Assembly: GCF_022832435.1 (NCBI RefSeq) | Contig: NZ_JALHLF010000008.1 | Location: 22,662 to 86,661 of the forward strand | Direction of reading: 5' to 3' | Length of the DNA: 64,000 nucleotides | DNA from: Novosphingobium organovorum | GTDB lineage: Bacteria > Pseudomonadota > Alphaproteobacteria > Sphingomonadales > Sphingomonadaceae | In this document: positions 10,314-16,189 of the stretch, piece by piece | Numbering within the stretch: the first letter of the stretch is position 1 | Layout: each line of letters begins with the position of its first letter | Program-made: the position numbers and the translations under genes | The notes under the pieces: generated by a model | The model's database searches: none | The model's input: only the letters and a program-made list of their open reading frames with translations | What the model was told of the DNA's origin: nothing

Positions 10314-11852
10314 ATGAGATTTTCCCCCGTTCGCCCCGCTGGCATCCTGTTTCCCCTGCTTGTCCTTACGCTTGTCGCTGGCTGCGGGGACAGTCCCGAG
10401 ACGTTGTTCACGAAGGCGCAGAAGAGTTTCGCGCAGGAGGAATACGACACCGCGCGCATCGAAGTAGCCTCCGCGCTCAAGGACGATCCGAACAACCCCG
10501 CGATGCTTGCCCTGCTGGCGCGCTCGTACTTGCGCCTGGGCGATCCCGATGGCGCCGAGGGCGCGCTCAACCGGATGGAGCAGGCCGGGGGATCGGACAA
10601 GGGGCTGGCTGCGGTCCGGGCCGAGATCGCGCTGATCCGCGGGCGCCCGGCCCAAGCATTGCAGACGCTGGGCTCGGACACCAGCGCCGATGCCTGGCGG
10701 GTGCGCGCCGAGGCCAACCTTGCGCTCGACAACCGCAACGCGGCGATCGACGCCTTTGAAAAAGGGCTTGGGGCTGGCGGGGGCATTCGTCTGGCCGAAG
10801 CCTATGCCCGTTTTCGCCTCAATGCGGGCGATCTGGATCAGGTGGACACGATCTACCGCCGGATGGTTGCCATGGATGCCAAGGCCTACGAGACGATGAC
10901 GCTGGCGGGTGATCTGGCCGCCGCGCGCGGGCAGACCGATGCCGCGATCGCGGCGTTCGAGAAGGTGGTGAAGGCCTATCCGGACCGGATCGCGCCGCGT
11001 CTGGCACTGGCCAACCAGTACGACGCCAAGGGTCAGGTCGACAAGGCGATGCAGGTCGTCGAGGCGGCGGGCAAGCTGGGGCAGGACCCTGCGGCGGTCG
11101 AGGCGCTCAAGGTCCAGTTGATGTCCGAGAAGGGGGAGTGGACTGCGATCCGCGATCTCTTGCGCAACCGCGAATCGCAGCTCGATCCCGGCTCGGCGAT
11201 GAGCATGTCCTATGGCGAGGCGCTGTTGCACCTGGGGCAGGGGGATCAGGCCCGGCTGATTTTCAAGCGCGCCTCGCTGGCGCTGCCCGGCAACCCTTAC
11301 GCGCGCCTGATGCTGGGCATTTCCCTGATCGAAACGAACGACAACGCCGGAGCCTGGGCCACGCTCAAGCCGCTGGCGATGAGCCCGCTCGCTCGCCGCG
11401 AGGAAATCGATGCGGCCCGTCAGGCCGCCGAAGCGGTCGGAGCGCCCGAGGCGGCCGCGCTAAAGGCGCGCCTCCAGCCCGATCAGCTCAAGGCGGCGCA
11501 GGCGCGTATCGATGCGGGCGCTGCGGCCATGAGCACCGGGCAATGGGACAGGGCCATCGCGATCTACGCACCGATGCTGGCGGGCAGCCCCAACGATGTC
11601 GAACTGCTCAAGCGCCTGGCGCTGGCGCATTCGCATCTGGGGCAGGGCGATCAGGCGATCGGTTTTGCCGACCGCGCGGTCGCGATCGACGCGCACAATC
11701 CCGATTGTCTCTATGTCGCCGGGTACGTCCGGCTCGAGAGTGGGGCCGATGTGGCCAAGGCGCGCACGCTGCTCAAGGCGGCGGCCGATGCCGATCCCAA
11801 CAACGCGACGATCGCGCGTGAGCTTGTAAAGGCAAACGCCGCCCAGGGCTGA
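10314..11852 (+). CDS. TPR-repeat lipoprotein (PEP-CTERM system PrsT-like candidate)
   Basis: The 512-residue product has a signal peptide with lipobox LVAGC (Cys about 24) followed almost entirely by tetratricopeptide-like helical pairs, for example AFEKVVKAYPDRIAPRLALANQY and ADPNNATIAREL. It is probably an outer-membrane or periplasmic-side scaffold. A strong AGGAG lies 8 nt before the ATG. The gene converges on a PEP-CTERM protein gene. TPR lipoproteins (PrsT) accompany exosortase loci in other Gram-negatives, so a link is plausible, but no other exosortase gene is in the window and the TPR fold alone is not specific. Confidence 0.8.
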   Translation: MRFSPVRPAGILFPLLVLTLVAGCGDSPETLFTKAQKSFAQEEYDTARIEVASALKDDPNNPAMLALLARSYLRLGDPDGAEGALNRMEQAGGSDKGLAAVRAEIALIRGRPAQALQTLGSDTSADAWRVRAEANLALDNRNAAIDAFEKGLGAGGGIRLAEAYARFRLNAGDLDQVDTIYRRMVAMDAKAYETMTLAGDLAAARGQTDAAIAAFEKVVKAYPDRIAPRLALANQYDAKGQVDKAMQVVEAAGKLGQDPAAVEALKVQLMSEKGEWTAIRDLLRNRESQLDPGSAMSMSYGEALLHLGQGDQARLIFKRASLALPGNPYARLMLGISLIETNDNAGAWATLKPLAMSPLARREEIDAARQAAEAVGAPEAAALKARLQPDQLKAAQARIDAGAAAMSTGQWDRAIAIYAPMLAGSPNDVELLKRLALAHSHLGQGDQAIGFADRAVAIDAHNPDCLYVAGYVRLESGADVAKARTLLKAAADADPNNATIARELVKANAAQG

Positions 11853-11993: not shown

Positions 11994-12431
11994 TCAGGCC
12001 GCGCGCGGCTTGCGGCGGCGGGCGTAGGCGAGGCCGAGCAGGCCCAGGCCCATCATGCCAAGCATGCCGGGTTCGGGAACATCGGTGCCGCCCGAGGACG
12101 AACCGCCCGAGGTGCCACCCGAAGTCGAGGTGGTCGTGCCACCCGAGGTCGAAGTGGTGGTGGTGCCGCCTGAAGTCGAGGTGGTCGTCGTGCCGCCCGA
12201 GGTTGACGACGTGGTGGTCCCGCCCGAAGTCGAGCTCGTCGAGGTGGTGGTGCCGCTGCACATCGATGCCCCCGAGGCGTGGCCGCAATCGCAGTAGTGG
12301 GTGTGCGTGCTTGTGCCGCCCGAGGACGAGCTGCTGCTGCCCCAGTTGAAGAAGGTCGCATGGGCCGGCGTGGCCATGGACAGGGCCATGGTCGCGGCGA
12401 AAGCGATCGAGCTGGCAGACTTACGGATCAT
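11994..12431 (-). CDS. PEP-CTERM sorting-domain protein, Ser/Thr/Gly repeat
   Basis: The 145-residue protein has an N-terminal signal peptide (cleavage likely after AHA, about residue 25) and a short segment with Cys and His. A repeated low-complexity region of STSGGTTTT units and a classic C-terminal PEP-CTERM tripartite signal follow: VPEP, a hydrophobic helix and ARRRKPR. PEP-CTERM proteins are processed by exosortase/EpsH and displayed or released, often with exopolysaccharide. The Ser/Thr-rich repeats would be good O-glycosylation substrates (inference). A sigma-54 promoter lies upstream, and AGGGG precedes the ATG. Confidence 0.9.
   Translation of the reverse strand: MIRKSASSIAFAATMALSMATPAHATFFNWGSSSSSSGGTSTHTHYCDCGHASGASMCSGTTTSTSSTSGGTTTSSTSGGTTTTSTSGGTTTTSTSGGTTTSTSGGTSGGSSSGGTDVPEPGMLGMMGLGLLGLAYARRRKPRAA
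12100..12245 (-). repeat. In-gene tandem repeat (27-30 bp units)
   Basis: Within the PEP-CTERM gene, units encoding roughly STSGGTTTT recur five or six times with small length changes in multiples of three. Reading frame is kept throughout, so the array is a coding repeat able to expand or contract without frameshift. Confidence 0.8.
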
Positions 12432-12471
12432 GATGACTACCCCTAGTTCCCTTGTGGTTGCCAGCTAACAA

Positions 12472-12487
12472 AGCAAACGACGTGCCA
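12472..12487 (-). promoter_or_regulatory. Sigma-54 (RpoN) promoter of the PEP-CTERM gene
   Basis: On the minus strand the sequence reads TTGGCACG-TCGT-TTGCT. This matches the RpoN consensus TGGCACG-N4-TTGCW at every key position, including the invariant GG and GC. It lies about 40 bp upstream of the PEP-CTERM start codon and predicts a transcription start near 12461. PEP-CTERM genes are known to be controlled by the NtrC-type regulator PrsR with RpoN in several bacteria. Confidence 0.85.
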
Positions 12488-12564
12488 AATACGAAATTAC
12501 GCGGCTTTGGTGGTTAATGAAATGCGATAGCGCTCCGATATGTAAGCTAACCTGACACCTGATT

Positions 12565-12577
12565 TCAGTTAACCTGA
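12565..12577. promoter_or_regulatory. Candidate upstream activator site for the sigma-54 promoter
   Basis: TCAGTTAACCTGA is an imperfect palindrome about 105 bp upstream of the predicted start, a typical enhancer distance for NtrC-family activators. Part of it, TAACCTGA, is repeated directly 22 bp away at 12548-12555. Assignment to a PrsR-type activator is inference. Confidence 0.4.
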
Positions 12578-12618
12578 ACTAACGAGGGGGCGCAAGGGGA
12601 GGGTGGCCGATGGGTCGG

Positions 12619-13194
12619 TCAGCCCTGCTGGCGCAGTGCGATTTCACTCATGAAGCGCGCGTCGTTGCCTTCGGCCAGCCATCCAGCCTCGGCCGCCAGC
12701 GCGCCAAGCATGTCGGCCAGCGGGTCCATTTCGGCCTTGGCGAAATTGCCCAGCACGTAGCCGGTCACCCGGTCCTTGTGCCCCGGATGGCCGATGCCCA
12801 GCCGAATTCGGCGGTAGTCTGGCCCCAGGTGCTGGCCGATCGAGCGCAGGCCGTTGTGGCCGGCGTGGCCGCCGCCGCGTTTCACCTTGACCTTGAACGG
12901 GGCCAGGTCGAGCTCGTCGTGGAACACGGTCAGCGCGTCGGGTTCGAGCTTGTAGAAGCGCATCGCCTCGCTCACCGAGCGGCCGCTTTCGTTCATGAAG
13001 GTCGCGGGCTTGAGCAGGAGCACCTTGTCGCGGCCGATCCGGCCTTCCTGCAGCCAGCCCTGAAACTTCTTTTGCACCGCGCCAAAGCCGTGCACGTCGG
13101 CCAGTGTGTCGAGCGCCATGAAGCCCACGTTGTGCCGCTGAAGCGCGTATTGCGGTCCGGGGTTGCCCAGGCCCACCCACAGTTGCGTTGCCAT
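12619..13194 (-). CDS. pth: Peptidyl-tRNA hydrolase
   Basis: Pth recycles peptidyl-tRNA released from stalled ribosomes by hydrolysing the ester bond. The 191-residue product has the family signature WVGLGNPGPQYALQRHNVGF with the catalytic His (about residue 21), plus KPATFMNESG, HDELD and GGGHAGHNGLRS, all expected for a bacterial Pth. It follows rplY on the same strand; the rplY terminator lies in the 132-bp gap, so pth is probably expressed by read-through or its own promoter. The rplY-pth pair is a common arrangement. Confidence 0.97.
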   Translation of the reverse strand: MATQLWVGLGNPGPQYALQRHNVGFMALDTLADVHGFGAVQKKFQGWLQEGRIGRDKVLLLKPATFMNESGRSVSEAMRFYKLEPDALTVFHDELDLAPFKVKVKRGGGHAGHNGLRSIGQHLGPDYRRIRLGIGHPGHKDRVTGYVLGNFAKAEMDPLADMLGALAAEAGWLAEGNDARFMSEIALRQQG

Positions 13195-14134: not shown

Positions 14135-15025
14135 CTACTGGACCCGCCGCACCGCGAACCCTTGCGCGCGCAGCAGCGCGACGAGACCGTCGGACCCGAC
14201 CATGTGCGCCGCGCCGACCGCCACGAAGGGGCGCTGGCCAGCGTGGACGGCTGAGGCGATCCGGGGTGCCCAGGCGCGGTTGCGCCCGGTGTAGAGCGCC
14301 GCGCGCAGTTCGGGGTCGGCGAGCAAGCCGGTGTGCGTCTGGGCCGCGATCGCGGCGACATCGCCCTTGCGCCAGGCCTGCGTCAGGTCGGTGTCGGAGA
14401 GCGCCTGCGCTTCGTGGACGATGGCGCTGAGCAAATCGCGCTGCTCGCGCTCGGGCAGCGCGGCGAACAGGCTGAGTTGCTTTTCGGCGCCTTCGAGCTC
14501 GACCACCGGGCGCGGCGGCGCGGCGGCGAGCACCGCGCGGTCCACGCCGTTCGCGGCGTTGTCGTCGGCGCTGGCCGCGTTGGCGAGCGTAAGCGCGGCG
14601 GCCCAGGTCTGCGTTTCGCCAAACTGGTTGTCGGAAAAACCCTCGCGGGCGAGCAGTGCGGCGAGCGCGGGGCGATCGCGGGCGGGCACGCGCTGGCTGA
14701 GTGGCGGCTGCCCGGAGGTGCGGGCGAGCCGGGCGAAAGTGGCGCTGAGAGCCGCATCGTCGCGCAGATTGGCGACTTCGACGAGCACTGTGCCGGCCTT
14801 GGCAAAGGCGGCGTCGAGTTTGGGCGAATGCCAGGCGAGCGGGGCAGGGGCCGAATGGATGGTGCCCAGCAGCCAACCCTCGTGCCCTTGTGCGTCGGAG
14901 ATCCGCCACAGGGCGGGGGTCGCGGGCAGCGGCTCGAGTCCGGTGACGAGCCGGTAGCCCAGCAGTCCTGCCGCCAGCGCCAGCGCGGTGCCCAGCACGG
15001 CAAGAAGGAGGTTGCGAATGGTCAT
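14135..15025 (-). CDS. TraB/GumN family protein (downstream paralogue)
   Basis: The 296-residue product has an N-terminal membrane anchor or uncleaved signal (about residues 5-25) and a TraB/PrgY/GumN domain. The two GxxH signatures, GTIHSAP and AVGAAHMVG, and an acidic LVEV motif between them are present; these are thought to form a metal site in this protease-like family. The physiological substrate is unknown. It begins 24 bp after its upstream paralogue, so the pair is probably co-transcribed and arose by tandem duplication. Confidence 0.88.
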
Positions 15026-15049
15026 GGCCGGAAAAAGGCGGCGCGCGCC

Positions 15050-15976
15050 CTACTGCACCCGAACGGCGCGCACGCCGTCCTTGGCCAGAAGCGCCTGCAC
15101 GCTGTCCTGTCCGGCGAGGTGCCCGGCGCCCACGGCCATGAACACGGTGCCTGGCTGCTTCAGGCGGGCCTCGATCCAGCGGGCCCAGTGCTGGTTGCGC
15201 GCGGTCAACAGCGTCTCGCGGATCAGCGGGTCGTTCTCCTGCTGATTGAGGATTTCGGCGAGATCCTTGGCCTTGCCCTGCTTCCAGGCATCGACCATCG
15301 CGGCGATGTCGCCATCGAGCGTGGGCAGGGCCTCTACCACATCGGCAAGGTAGGCGTCCTGGGTCGCGACCGGCAGGTCCTCGAACAGGCCGATCTGGTA
15401 GTCGGCGGTTTCAAGCGCTGCGTTGGTCAGTCCGAGTGCGCGGGCCTTGTCGGTGATCTGCTTGTCGATCCCGTTCGACAGGTCGTAACCTTGCATCTGG
15501 AGCGGGATGAGCGAGAGCATCAGCGCGGCAAACCAGGCGTCGTTGCCGTCGAACGCAGCGGGCGCAAGGCCAAGCTTGGTCATTGCGGCCTCGTAAGCAG
15601 CGCGGTTCTCGGGGGATAGTGTGTCGCGCAAGGCCCGCCCATCGGTGCGCGAGGCCTTTTCCAGCATGGCGCTCTGCGCAGCCTTATTGTCGTCCATGGG
15701 CACCTCGGTGACGAGGGTGCGCGAACTCTTCAGAGCCTTTGCGACGGGTCCGTTGAACCAGTCGACCGGCTTGGGCAGAACGTGGATGGTCCCGAACAGC
15801 CAGATGGTGGTGTCCTTGTCCGAGACCTTCCAGAGCGCGGGATGGACCCGCTCGGGGTTGCTGGCGGCGGTATCTGGCCGGGCGGGTCCGGCGGGCGCCT
15901 GCGCAAGCGTCGGGCTCGCCAGCAGGGCGAGCGCGAGAGTGGTGGCGCGGGTCACTCGAAACAGGAAGGGGTGCAT
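15050..15976 (-). CDS. TraB/GumN family protein (upstream paralogue)
   Basis: The 308-residue product has a cleavable signal peptide (cleavage likely after LAQA, about residue 26), so unlike its neighbour it is probably released into the periplasm. The TraB/GumN domain shows GTIHVLPKPVDW, an acidic TEVPMDD stretch and MAVGAGHLAGQDSV. The ATG at 15976 is chosen because the signal peptide starts there; a longer frame reaching 16084 adds 36 unlikely residues. The two copies share the domain but only moderate identity, so the duplication is not recent. Confidence 0.88.
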   Translation of the reverse strand: MHPFLFRVTRATTLALALLASPTLAQAPAGPARPDTAASNPERVHPALWKVSDKDTTIWLFGTIHVLPKPVDWFNGPVAKALKSSRTLVTEVPMDDNKAAQSAMLEKASRTDGRALRDTLSPENRAAYEAAMTKLGLAPAAFDGNDAWFAALMLSLIPLQMQGYDLSNGIDKQITDKARALGLTNAALETADYQIGLFEDLPVATQDAYLADVVEALPTLDGDIAAMVDAWKQGKAKDLAEILNQQENDPLIRETLLTARNQHWARWIEARLKQPGTVFMAVGAGHLAGQDSVQALLAKDGVRAVRVQ

Positions 15977-16189
15977 GGATGGAAGGCCTTGGTACGTGTC
16001 GCTGCGTAGCCGGCAAGGGTGAGCGCGGAGGACTCGCTCTTTGCGGGCCGGGGCTGAATGGGGGCTGAGGCGGGGGTGTGACAAGTCAAGAATGCGCTTT
16101 GTGAGCCCTTTGCGCGGTTGATTTGCCCCCGCGCATCCGCCAAAGGCGAGCCGTCACATTCGACACCGGACGAACAACACGGAAACCCC

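Follow-up and report, generated by a model that had tools for sequence, protein, structure and literature searches.

The 64-kb stretch of Novosphingobium DNA analyzed here, referred to as the window, contains what is probably a PrsR/sigma-54 promoter of a substrate gene of the XrtA exosortase system, in which a TTAACCA box would serve as a third input or as an element of promoter geometry. The promoter kind itself, a PrsR/sigma-54 PEP-CTERM promoter, is already known. What appears to be new, judging from sequence comparisons, is the near-fixed TTAACCA element, the existence of two phased PrsR registers, and a small-protein target gene shared with the PEP-CTERM genes. The features on which this reading is built are as follows.

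12487..12473, minus strand: sigma-54 -24/-12 element TGGCACG-TCGT-TTGC, an exact sequence match
12461, minus strand: predicted transcription start, inferred from the -12 C at 12473 and sigma-54 geometry
12462..12455, minus strand: GGCAACCA at the predicted transcription start, matching the position of GT(C/T)AACCA in PEP-CTERM promoters of the genus
12517..12511, minus strand: TTAACCA box, at about -56 to -50 and 23 bp upstream of TGGCAC, with near-fixed spacing in relatives
12557..12541, minus strand: motif 1, the PrsR-type enhancer TGTCAGGTTAGCTTACA, at about -96 to -80 (consensus TGTCGG-N5-TTTACA)
12577..12565, minus strand: palindrome TCAGGTTAACTGA, present, not conserved
11994..12431, minus strand: PEP-CTERM protein gene, 145 aa, with a signal-peptide-like start, a Ser/Thr/Gly-rich middle, and the C terminus VPEPGMLGMMGLGLLGLAYARRRK
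12619..13194, minus strand: upstream neighbor, which we take from its sequence to be pth (peptidyl-tRNA hydrolase), used for finding syntenic relatives
10314..11852, plus strand: PrsT-like TPR protein gene, convergent with the PEP-CTERM gene; TIGR02917 is its best family, below cutoff
C230:10954, minus strand, elsewhere in the same genome: small membrane protein of about 95 aa (L063), with its sigma-54 site from 2955 down to 2941

On the minus strand, the region between the pth stop (12619) and the start of the 145-aa open reading frame (12431) contains TTGGCACG-TCGT-TTGCT, with 41 nt separating the final C of the sigma-54 core from the ATG at 12431. The initial annotation had proposed a near-perfect RpoN promoter about 40 bp ahead of the start codon, and the sequence bears this out: the -24 GG and -12 GC of PEP-CTERM promoters are both present in an exact match at 12487..12473, the only exact occurrence of TGGCACG-N4-TTGC in the window. 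Shuffled versions of the window contained 0.05 exact matches on average (5 of 100 shuffles had one), and the 4.6-Mb genome, assembled in 284 contigs, contains 9 where base composition predicts about 3.3. Once mismatches were allowed there was no excess, with 144 genomic matches at up to one mismatch versus 138 for the reversed pattern, and 27 matches in the window at up to two mismatches versus 32.7 expected. The sigma-54 motif taken alone is therefore weak evidence, and its context matters. Exact genomic matches other than the one in the window precede flagellar-, hydrogenase-, and IscA-like genes (identified by eye) or a small membrane protein gene, or sit inside a gene. The flagged site looks like a genuine on-switch of an already known kind.

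Conservation among relatives points to the 17-mer TGTCAGGTTAGCTTACA as the activator site, a sequence that the initial annotation overlooked, along with the TTAACCA box, and that matches the PrsR box of Haft et al. 2006 (PMC1569441). The copy in the window ends in CTTACA and departs at 2 of 12 positions from a consensus built here from relatives. Its 53-nt spacer to the sigma-54 motif and the 41 nt from there to the start codon lie inside the published ranges of 32 to 92 and 23 to 221 nt. The enhancer had originally been placed farther upstream, in the palindrome TCAGGTTAACTGA. The palindrome and its repeated half are indeed in the sequence, with TCAGGTTA recurring 22 bp on, where the second copy is overlapped by the 17-mer, and a genome-wide count of exact TCAGGTTANC gave 8 (2 of them in the flagged promoter) versus 4 for the control. 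The enhancer role was rejected, as the palindrome is not conserved and the conserved site is a different sequence. That TCAGTTAACCTGA is the activator site is very improbable, even with part of it repeated nearby, given that the palindrome is exact in only 1 of 16 pth-linked regions, the window itself (next best, two mismatches; the slice taken for L122 missed its promoter), and that the conserved box is the downstream 17-mer. At most it may represent a decayed tandem repeat of motif 1 at 12577, an idea that gained no support.

The gene downstream had been called a PEP-CTERM gene, and its C-terminal motif exceeds the cutoffs of both Pfam (33.6 versus 20.7 bits) and NCBIfam (TIGR02595, 25.8 versus 16). 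A motif above cutoff and an XrtA in the same genome together mark the product as a predicted exosortase A substrate, and the protein is probably sorted to the cell exterior together with surface sugars; its regulation and any role in biofilms are putative. Components of the system were looked for in the genome. It has one RpoN (PF04552, 225.5 bits) and, above cutoffs, one exosortase, which is of type A (XrtA, 318 versus 208 bits), PrsK (499.2 versus 300 bits, NCBIfam), and PrsR (668.6 versus 502.6 bits, NCBIfam). A single contig carries PrsR, PrsK, XrtA, the XrtA chain-length determinant, and the XrtA-linked decarboxylase and amidotransferase, each above its NCBIfam cutoff. With rpoN, XrtA, PrsK, and PrsR in place, the core of the initial reading holds; it had named a lack of exosortase, PrsR, or RpoN genes as a ground for refutation, and all three are there. 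TIGR02917 (PrsT, cutoff 312.2) was the best family of two TPR proteins, one in the window (145.9) and one encoded after prsR (125.2). As to the other neighbors, the closest named Pth in one scan was that of Novosphingobium profundi, at 92% identity, and positions 14135-16084 (minus strand) encode a tandem pair from the TraB/PrgY/GumN family (192 and 249 bits).

In the pth-linked PEP-CTERM intergenic regions of relatives, TTAACCA lies about 24 bp before TGGCAC, beside motif 1 and the sigma-54 site. A composite pattern, TTAACCA-N17..27-TGGCRC-N6-TGC, was used to survey this arrangement with 11 spacings allowed and the reversed pattern as control. Across 99 genomes of the genus, the composite matched 59 times in 45 genomes, versus 2 matches for the control, and the spacing was N24 in 54 cases, N23 in 4, and N25 in 1. 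The gene that follows encodes a PEP-CTERM protein in 42 cases and a small membrane protein in 13; the remaining 4 comprise a glnK-like gene, an apparently intragenic match, a contig end, and a locus designated L195. At the glnK-like gene (by eye; L166, G008:C12:149547), TTAACCA-N23-sigma-54 is found with neither TTTACA nor CTTACA in the preceding 75 bp. L195 (G043:C23:559700-561700) keeps a PrsR box, TTAACCA, and the sigma-54 site with no PEP-CTERM open reading frame seen behind them, and is followed by a YchF-like gene (by eye), as in the neighborhood of the window; it looks like a promoter left behind after gene loss.

A logo was made from 50 of the 59 promoters, leaving out one of odd length, L184, and near-duplicates. 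In the consensus of these 50 nonredundant promoters, the sequence AAATC begins 11 bp before TGGCAC, and the PEP-CTERM class has GT(C/T)AACCA at the predicted transcription start. In the genus set, 25 of 42 PEP-CTERM promoters carry AACC at the predicted start and none of the 13 small-protein promoters does; another 11 occurrences of AACC cluster about 10 bp further on. Motif 1 is also phased with respect to the box. When motif 1 was allowed to fall at any of 54 places, with up to 3 of 12 mismatches, its best match began -28/-29 or -18/-19 relative to TTAACCA for all but one of the 55 regulon promoters; the consensus used had been built from these same promoters. The PrsR box accordingly takes one of two registers, one helical turn (10 to 11 bp) apart. 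Neither a description of the TTAACCA box nor a paper containing both PEP-CTERM and TTAACC was found in the open-access papers searched, which were covered as text without figures.

Because the 59 promoters had been chosen by the box, pth-linked PEP-CTERM genes were checked independently of it, by taking PEP-CTERM genes solely by their position within 1.4 kb after pth in 80 loci. Three loci with pattern matches near pth (L102, L126, and L136) were left out because, on inspection by eye, they did not look like PEP-CTERM genes. Relatives yielded 19 pth-linked PEP-CTERM genes, 13 of which carry exact TTAACCA at N24. Another two (L094 and L108) keep the sigma-54 site and motif 1 with the box absent, and four (L109, L120, L123, and L124) are without a sigma-54 site. 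Within the window's own genome, TTAAC, GTTAA, and TTTACA were absent within 105 bp of all 7 other exact sigma-54 matches, and TTAACCA was accordingly rejected as a general feature of sigma-54 promoters for those seven sites.

Whether the same motif precedes other PEP-CTERM genes of this genome, as the initial annotation suggested looking for, was borne out in part. There are 5 PEP-CTERM matches above cutoff, and 2 of them have such a promoter: the window gene and a gene on contig C230, where the site is weaker; the remaining 3 of the 4 others have none. A composite matrix trained on 52 promoters, leaving the window out, gave the window site a score of 55.9, compared with 4.1 for the next best site in the 64 kb and 9.8 for the best of 20 Markov windows. 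In the same genome, the small-protein promoter scored 43.6 (TTAGGCA at N24), the C230 PEP-CTERM promoter scored 18.7, and the other three PEP-CTERM stretches (C88, C13, and C240) were at background. Since orthologues of the window gene are among the training promoters, these scores measure fit and are no independent proof.

Departures from the standard layout can be seen at two of these genes. At the C230 PEP-CTERM promoter (C230:63066; gene at C230:63037-63108, L068), TTAAC, GTTAA, and TTTACA are all present within 105 bp. Its upstream box is inverted (TGGTTAAC), with TTAAC shifted by 5 bp and reading TGGTTAA, and the distance from PrsR box to sigma-54 site is the same as in the window. Upstream of a choice-of-anchor A PEP-CTERM gene (PEP-CTERM motif at C88:950-1021; L065), a spacer of 24 bp separates TTAACCT from a degenerate AGGCGCG...ATCT; GTTAACCA is found near the matching start position, and inspection by eye showed no PrsR box. 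The boxes at C88 may act independently of sigma-54, or this promoter may be a decayed one.

A second target of the same promoter layout is a family of small membrane proteins. The member in the window's own genome (C230:10954) is preceded by CTTACA, a degenerate box TTAGGCA at N24, and an exact sigma-54 site; TTAAC, GTTAA, and TTTACA do not occur there as exact words. Relatives of this protein with an intact TTAACCA are found in many genera. The 26 distinct sequences collected from the family have two hydrophobic stretches by eye and the consensus Ml.Ki.RLFvIKTr.EAfliIYALaLGA..RG..Yl.qyPG.gGklLFlActgAVF.aGAKILD, and the one member scanned (C230:10954) had no Pfam or NCBIfam match. Given the PrsR box and TTAACCA that these genes have in common with the PEP-CTERM genes, the small membrane protein could be a further component of the exosortase system.

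In the genus, the exact composite is present in only 45 of 99 genomes. PrsR is above cutoff in 89 of the 99 (43 of 45 with the composite and 46 of 54 without), so nearly universal that it proved uninformative as a marker of composite-bearing genomes. For Sphingomonadaceae, 249 genomes from 96 genera were sampled, and the composite was found in 57 genomes and 31 genera, with 68 matches versus 3 for controls and spacings, by coordinates, of N24 in 55, N23 in 9, and N26 in 4. Of 29 family loci that were read, 17 encode the small membrane protein, 10 a PEP-CTERM protein, and 2 an enoyl-CoA-hydratase-like protein (by eye) without motif 1; the last two, L239 and L240, belong to another genus and have TTAACCA-N23-sigma-54 without a PrsR box. 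A search of the class covered 385 genomes, 5 of them from the window's family. Beyond the window and one same-family genome (2 matches), it returned 11 composites versus 7 controls, which on these counts alone was taken as chance.

The observed elements, their spacing and conservation, their association with one gene set, and the presence of RpoN, PrsK, PrsR, and XrtA would fit together in the following scheme, in which binding, activation, the start site, the signal, and the role of TTAACCA are all predicted. PrsK would sense an envelope or exopolysaccharide cue and phosphorylate PrsR, which would bind the 17-bp dyad TGTCAGGTTAGCTTACA centered near -88 and remodel a sigma-54 polymerase poised at -24/-12, after which XrtA would process the secreted Ser/Thr-rich product. 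In Sphingomonadaceae the promoter includes a third part, TTAACCA at about -56, 24 bp (±1) from TGGCAC, and the PrsR dyad occupies either of two registers. A protein on TTAACCA may join PrsR or may set the path of the DNA between PrsR and the polymerase, and the related AACCA box near the predicted start marks many PEP-CTERM genes and no small-protein gene of the genus set.

In its fullest form, this becomes a tentative model, possible but short of probable: exosortase A promoters of Sphingomonadaceae would be three-part, with a sequence-specific factor, besides RpoN and PrsR, reading TTAACCA, fixed at -56 and found again near the start of substrate genes. The box layout would separate substrate genes from the genes for two-helix membrane proteins of about 80 aa, and the small protein would be a new part of the exosortase system. 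That the reader of TTAACCA is a sequence-specific partner protein is held with modest confidence. Bending or plain geometry could account for the spacing but hardly for which letters are conserved, and the observations that speak against CtrA weaken the leading named factor; on these two points the sequence-specific partner is favored.

The spacing can also be read in purely structural terms. TTAACCA and the AT-rich AAATC could form an architectural site, contributing no regulatory information of its own, at which the loop between PrsR and polymerase is set by intrinsic curvature or by a protein of the IHF/HU type. IHF sites are common between enhancers and sigma-54 promoters, and both the near-fixed 24 bp to TGGCAC and the PrsR registers 10 to 11 bp apart fit a geometry element. 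The conserved letters, however, are ones that we take to be unlike the IHF consensus, the box is present at 0 of the 7 other exact sigma-54 matches of the genome, and the conservation of seven bases suggests that the sequence itself is read. This account is rather unlikely.

The best named candidate for a protein reading TTAACCA is CtrA, because one report (PMC6180460) gives TTAACCAT as an ungapped form of the CtrA motif in Caulobacter and because EPS synthesis in Sphingomonas melonis is reportedly under CtrA control (PMC8921679, citing another paper). CtrA would then gate the promoters of exosortase substrates, with the start-site box as a repressor site. The window carries TTAACCAC where the ungapped variant is TTAACCAT, and across 55 regulon promoters the eighth base, the one following TTAACCA, is free (C in 17, T in 15, G in 14, and A in 9). 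The consensus has no TTAA-N7-TTAA partner, and the window reads CCACCAAAGCC after the TTAA at 12517. In the window's own genome, GTTAACCA occurs 19 times, less often than its reversed control (31), and PEP-CTERM promoters account for 3 of these sites. Among the 80 pth loci, which are no fair sample of CtrA targets, 5 of 20 intergenic TTAACCA occurrences lie outside the 15 loci counted with a PEP-CTERM gene. Finally, CtrA is widespread in the alphaproteobacterial class, whereas outside the family the composite is at about the control level. The idea of TTAACCA as a common genome-wide site such as that of CtrA is weakened by these findings, and CtrA control of these promoters is unlikely. One of the 19 genomic GTTAACCA sites (C241:18452, L280) is inside the exosortase cluster, on the opposite strand, in the interval separating the XrtA-type amidotransferase gene from the next one.

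That the promoter is a relic or out of use in the source strain, as might be argued from PEP-CTERM genes that have no such promoter and from L195, where the promoter has no PEP-CTERM gene seen behind it, is highly doubtful, since the three elements and the open reading frame show no damage and the composite scores far higher than background.

Among the papers searched, the pepA promoter of Aquincola tertiaricarbonis (PMC9850573) was the only one of an exosortase substrate gene to have been studied by experiment. A precisely spaced third element and a second target gene family present in many genera would offer a definite handle on exosortase regulation. A near-fixed intermediate site at a sigma-54 promoter with no resemblance to an IHF site would also be of interest for enhancer looping.

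Aquincola is a betaproteobacterium. Transcription of its pepA is described in the available text as RpoN1-dependent, from a mapped TGGCAC/CTGCTT promoter with its start at G (PMC9850573). An enhancer upstream of it is predicted, and pepA is beside a prsT gene, much as the PEP-CTERM gene of the window is near a PrsT-like TPR gene; prsT lies downstream of pepA in Aquincola, whereas the TPR gene of the window is convergent and below the PrsT cutoff. Promoters controlled by CtrA offer another comparison, in that the window's TTAACCA resembles the ungapped variant TTAACCAT (PMC6180460, available text). Unlike those promoters, the window has no gapped TTAA-N7-TTAA, and its box is near-fixed to a sigma-54 promoter and, in the searches made, clearly above control solely in Sphingomonadaceae.

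The closest known system is the one described by Haft et al. 2006 (PMC1569441), whose available text assigns to PEP-CTERM genes of proteobacteria a motif 1 of 17 nt that ends in TTTACA, a spacer of 32 to 92 nt, and a sigma-54 motif 2 at 23 to 221 nt from the start codon, links both motifs to PrsR, PrsK, and PrsT by phylogenetic profile, and calls the PrsK stimulus obscure. That text, logo figure aside, mentions no third element, no TTAACC, and neither Novosphingobium nor Erythrobacter. The window shares with those promoters a 17-nt motif 1 (ending in CTTACA), the -24/-12 element, a spacer and start-codon distance in range, a PEP-CTERM gene, and the PrsR/PrsK/exosortase set. It differs from them in having TTAACCA at a near-fixed distance and an AACCA box at the predicted start, and its relatives show two discrete PrsR registers.
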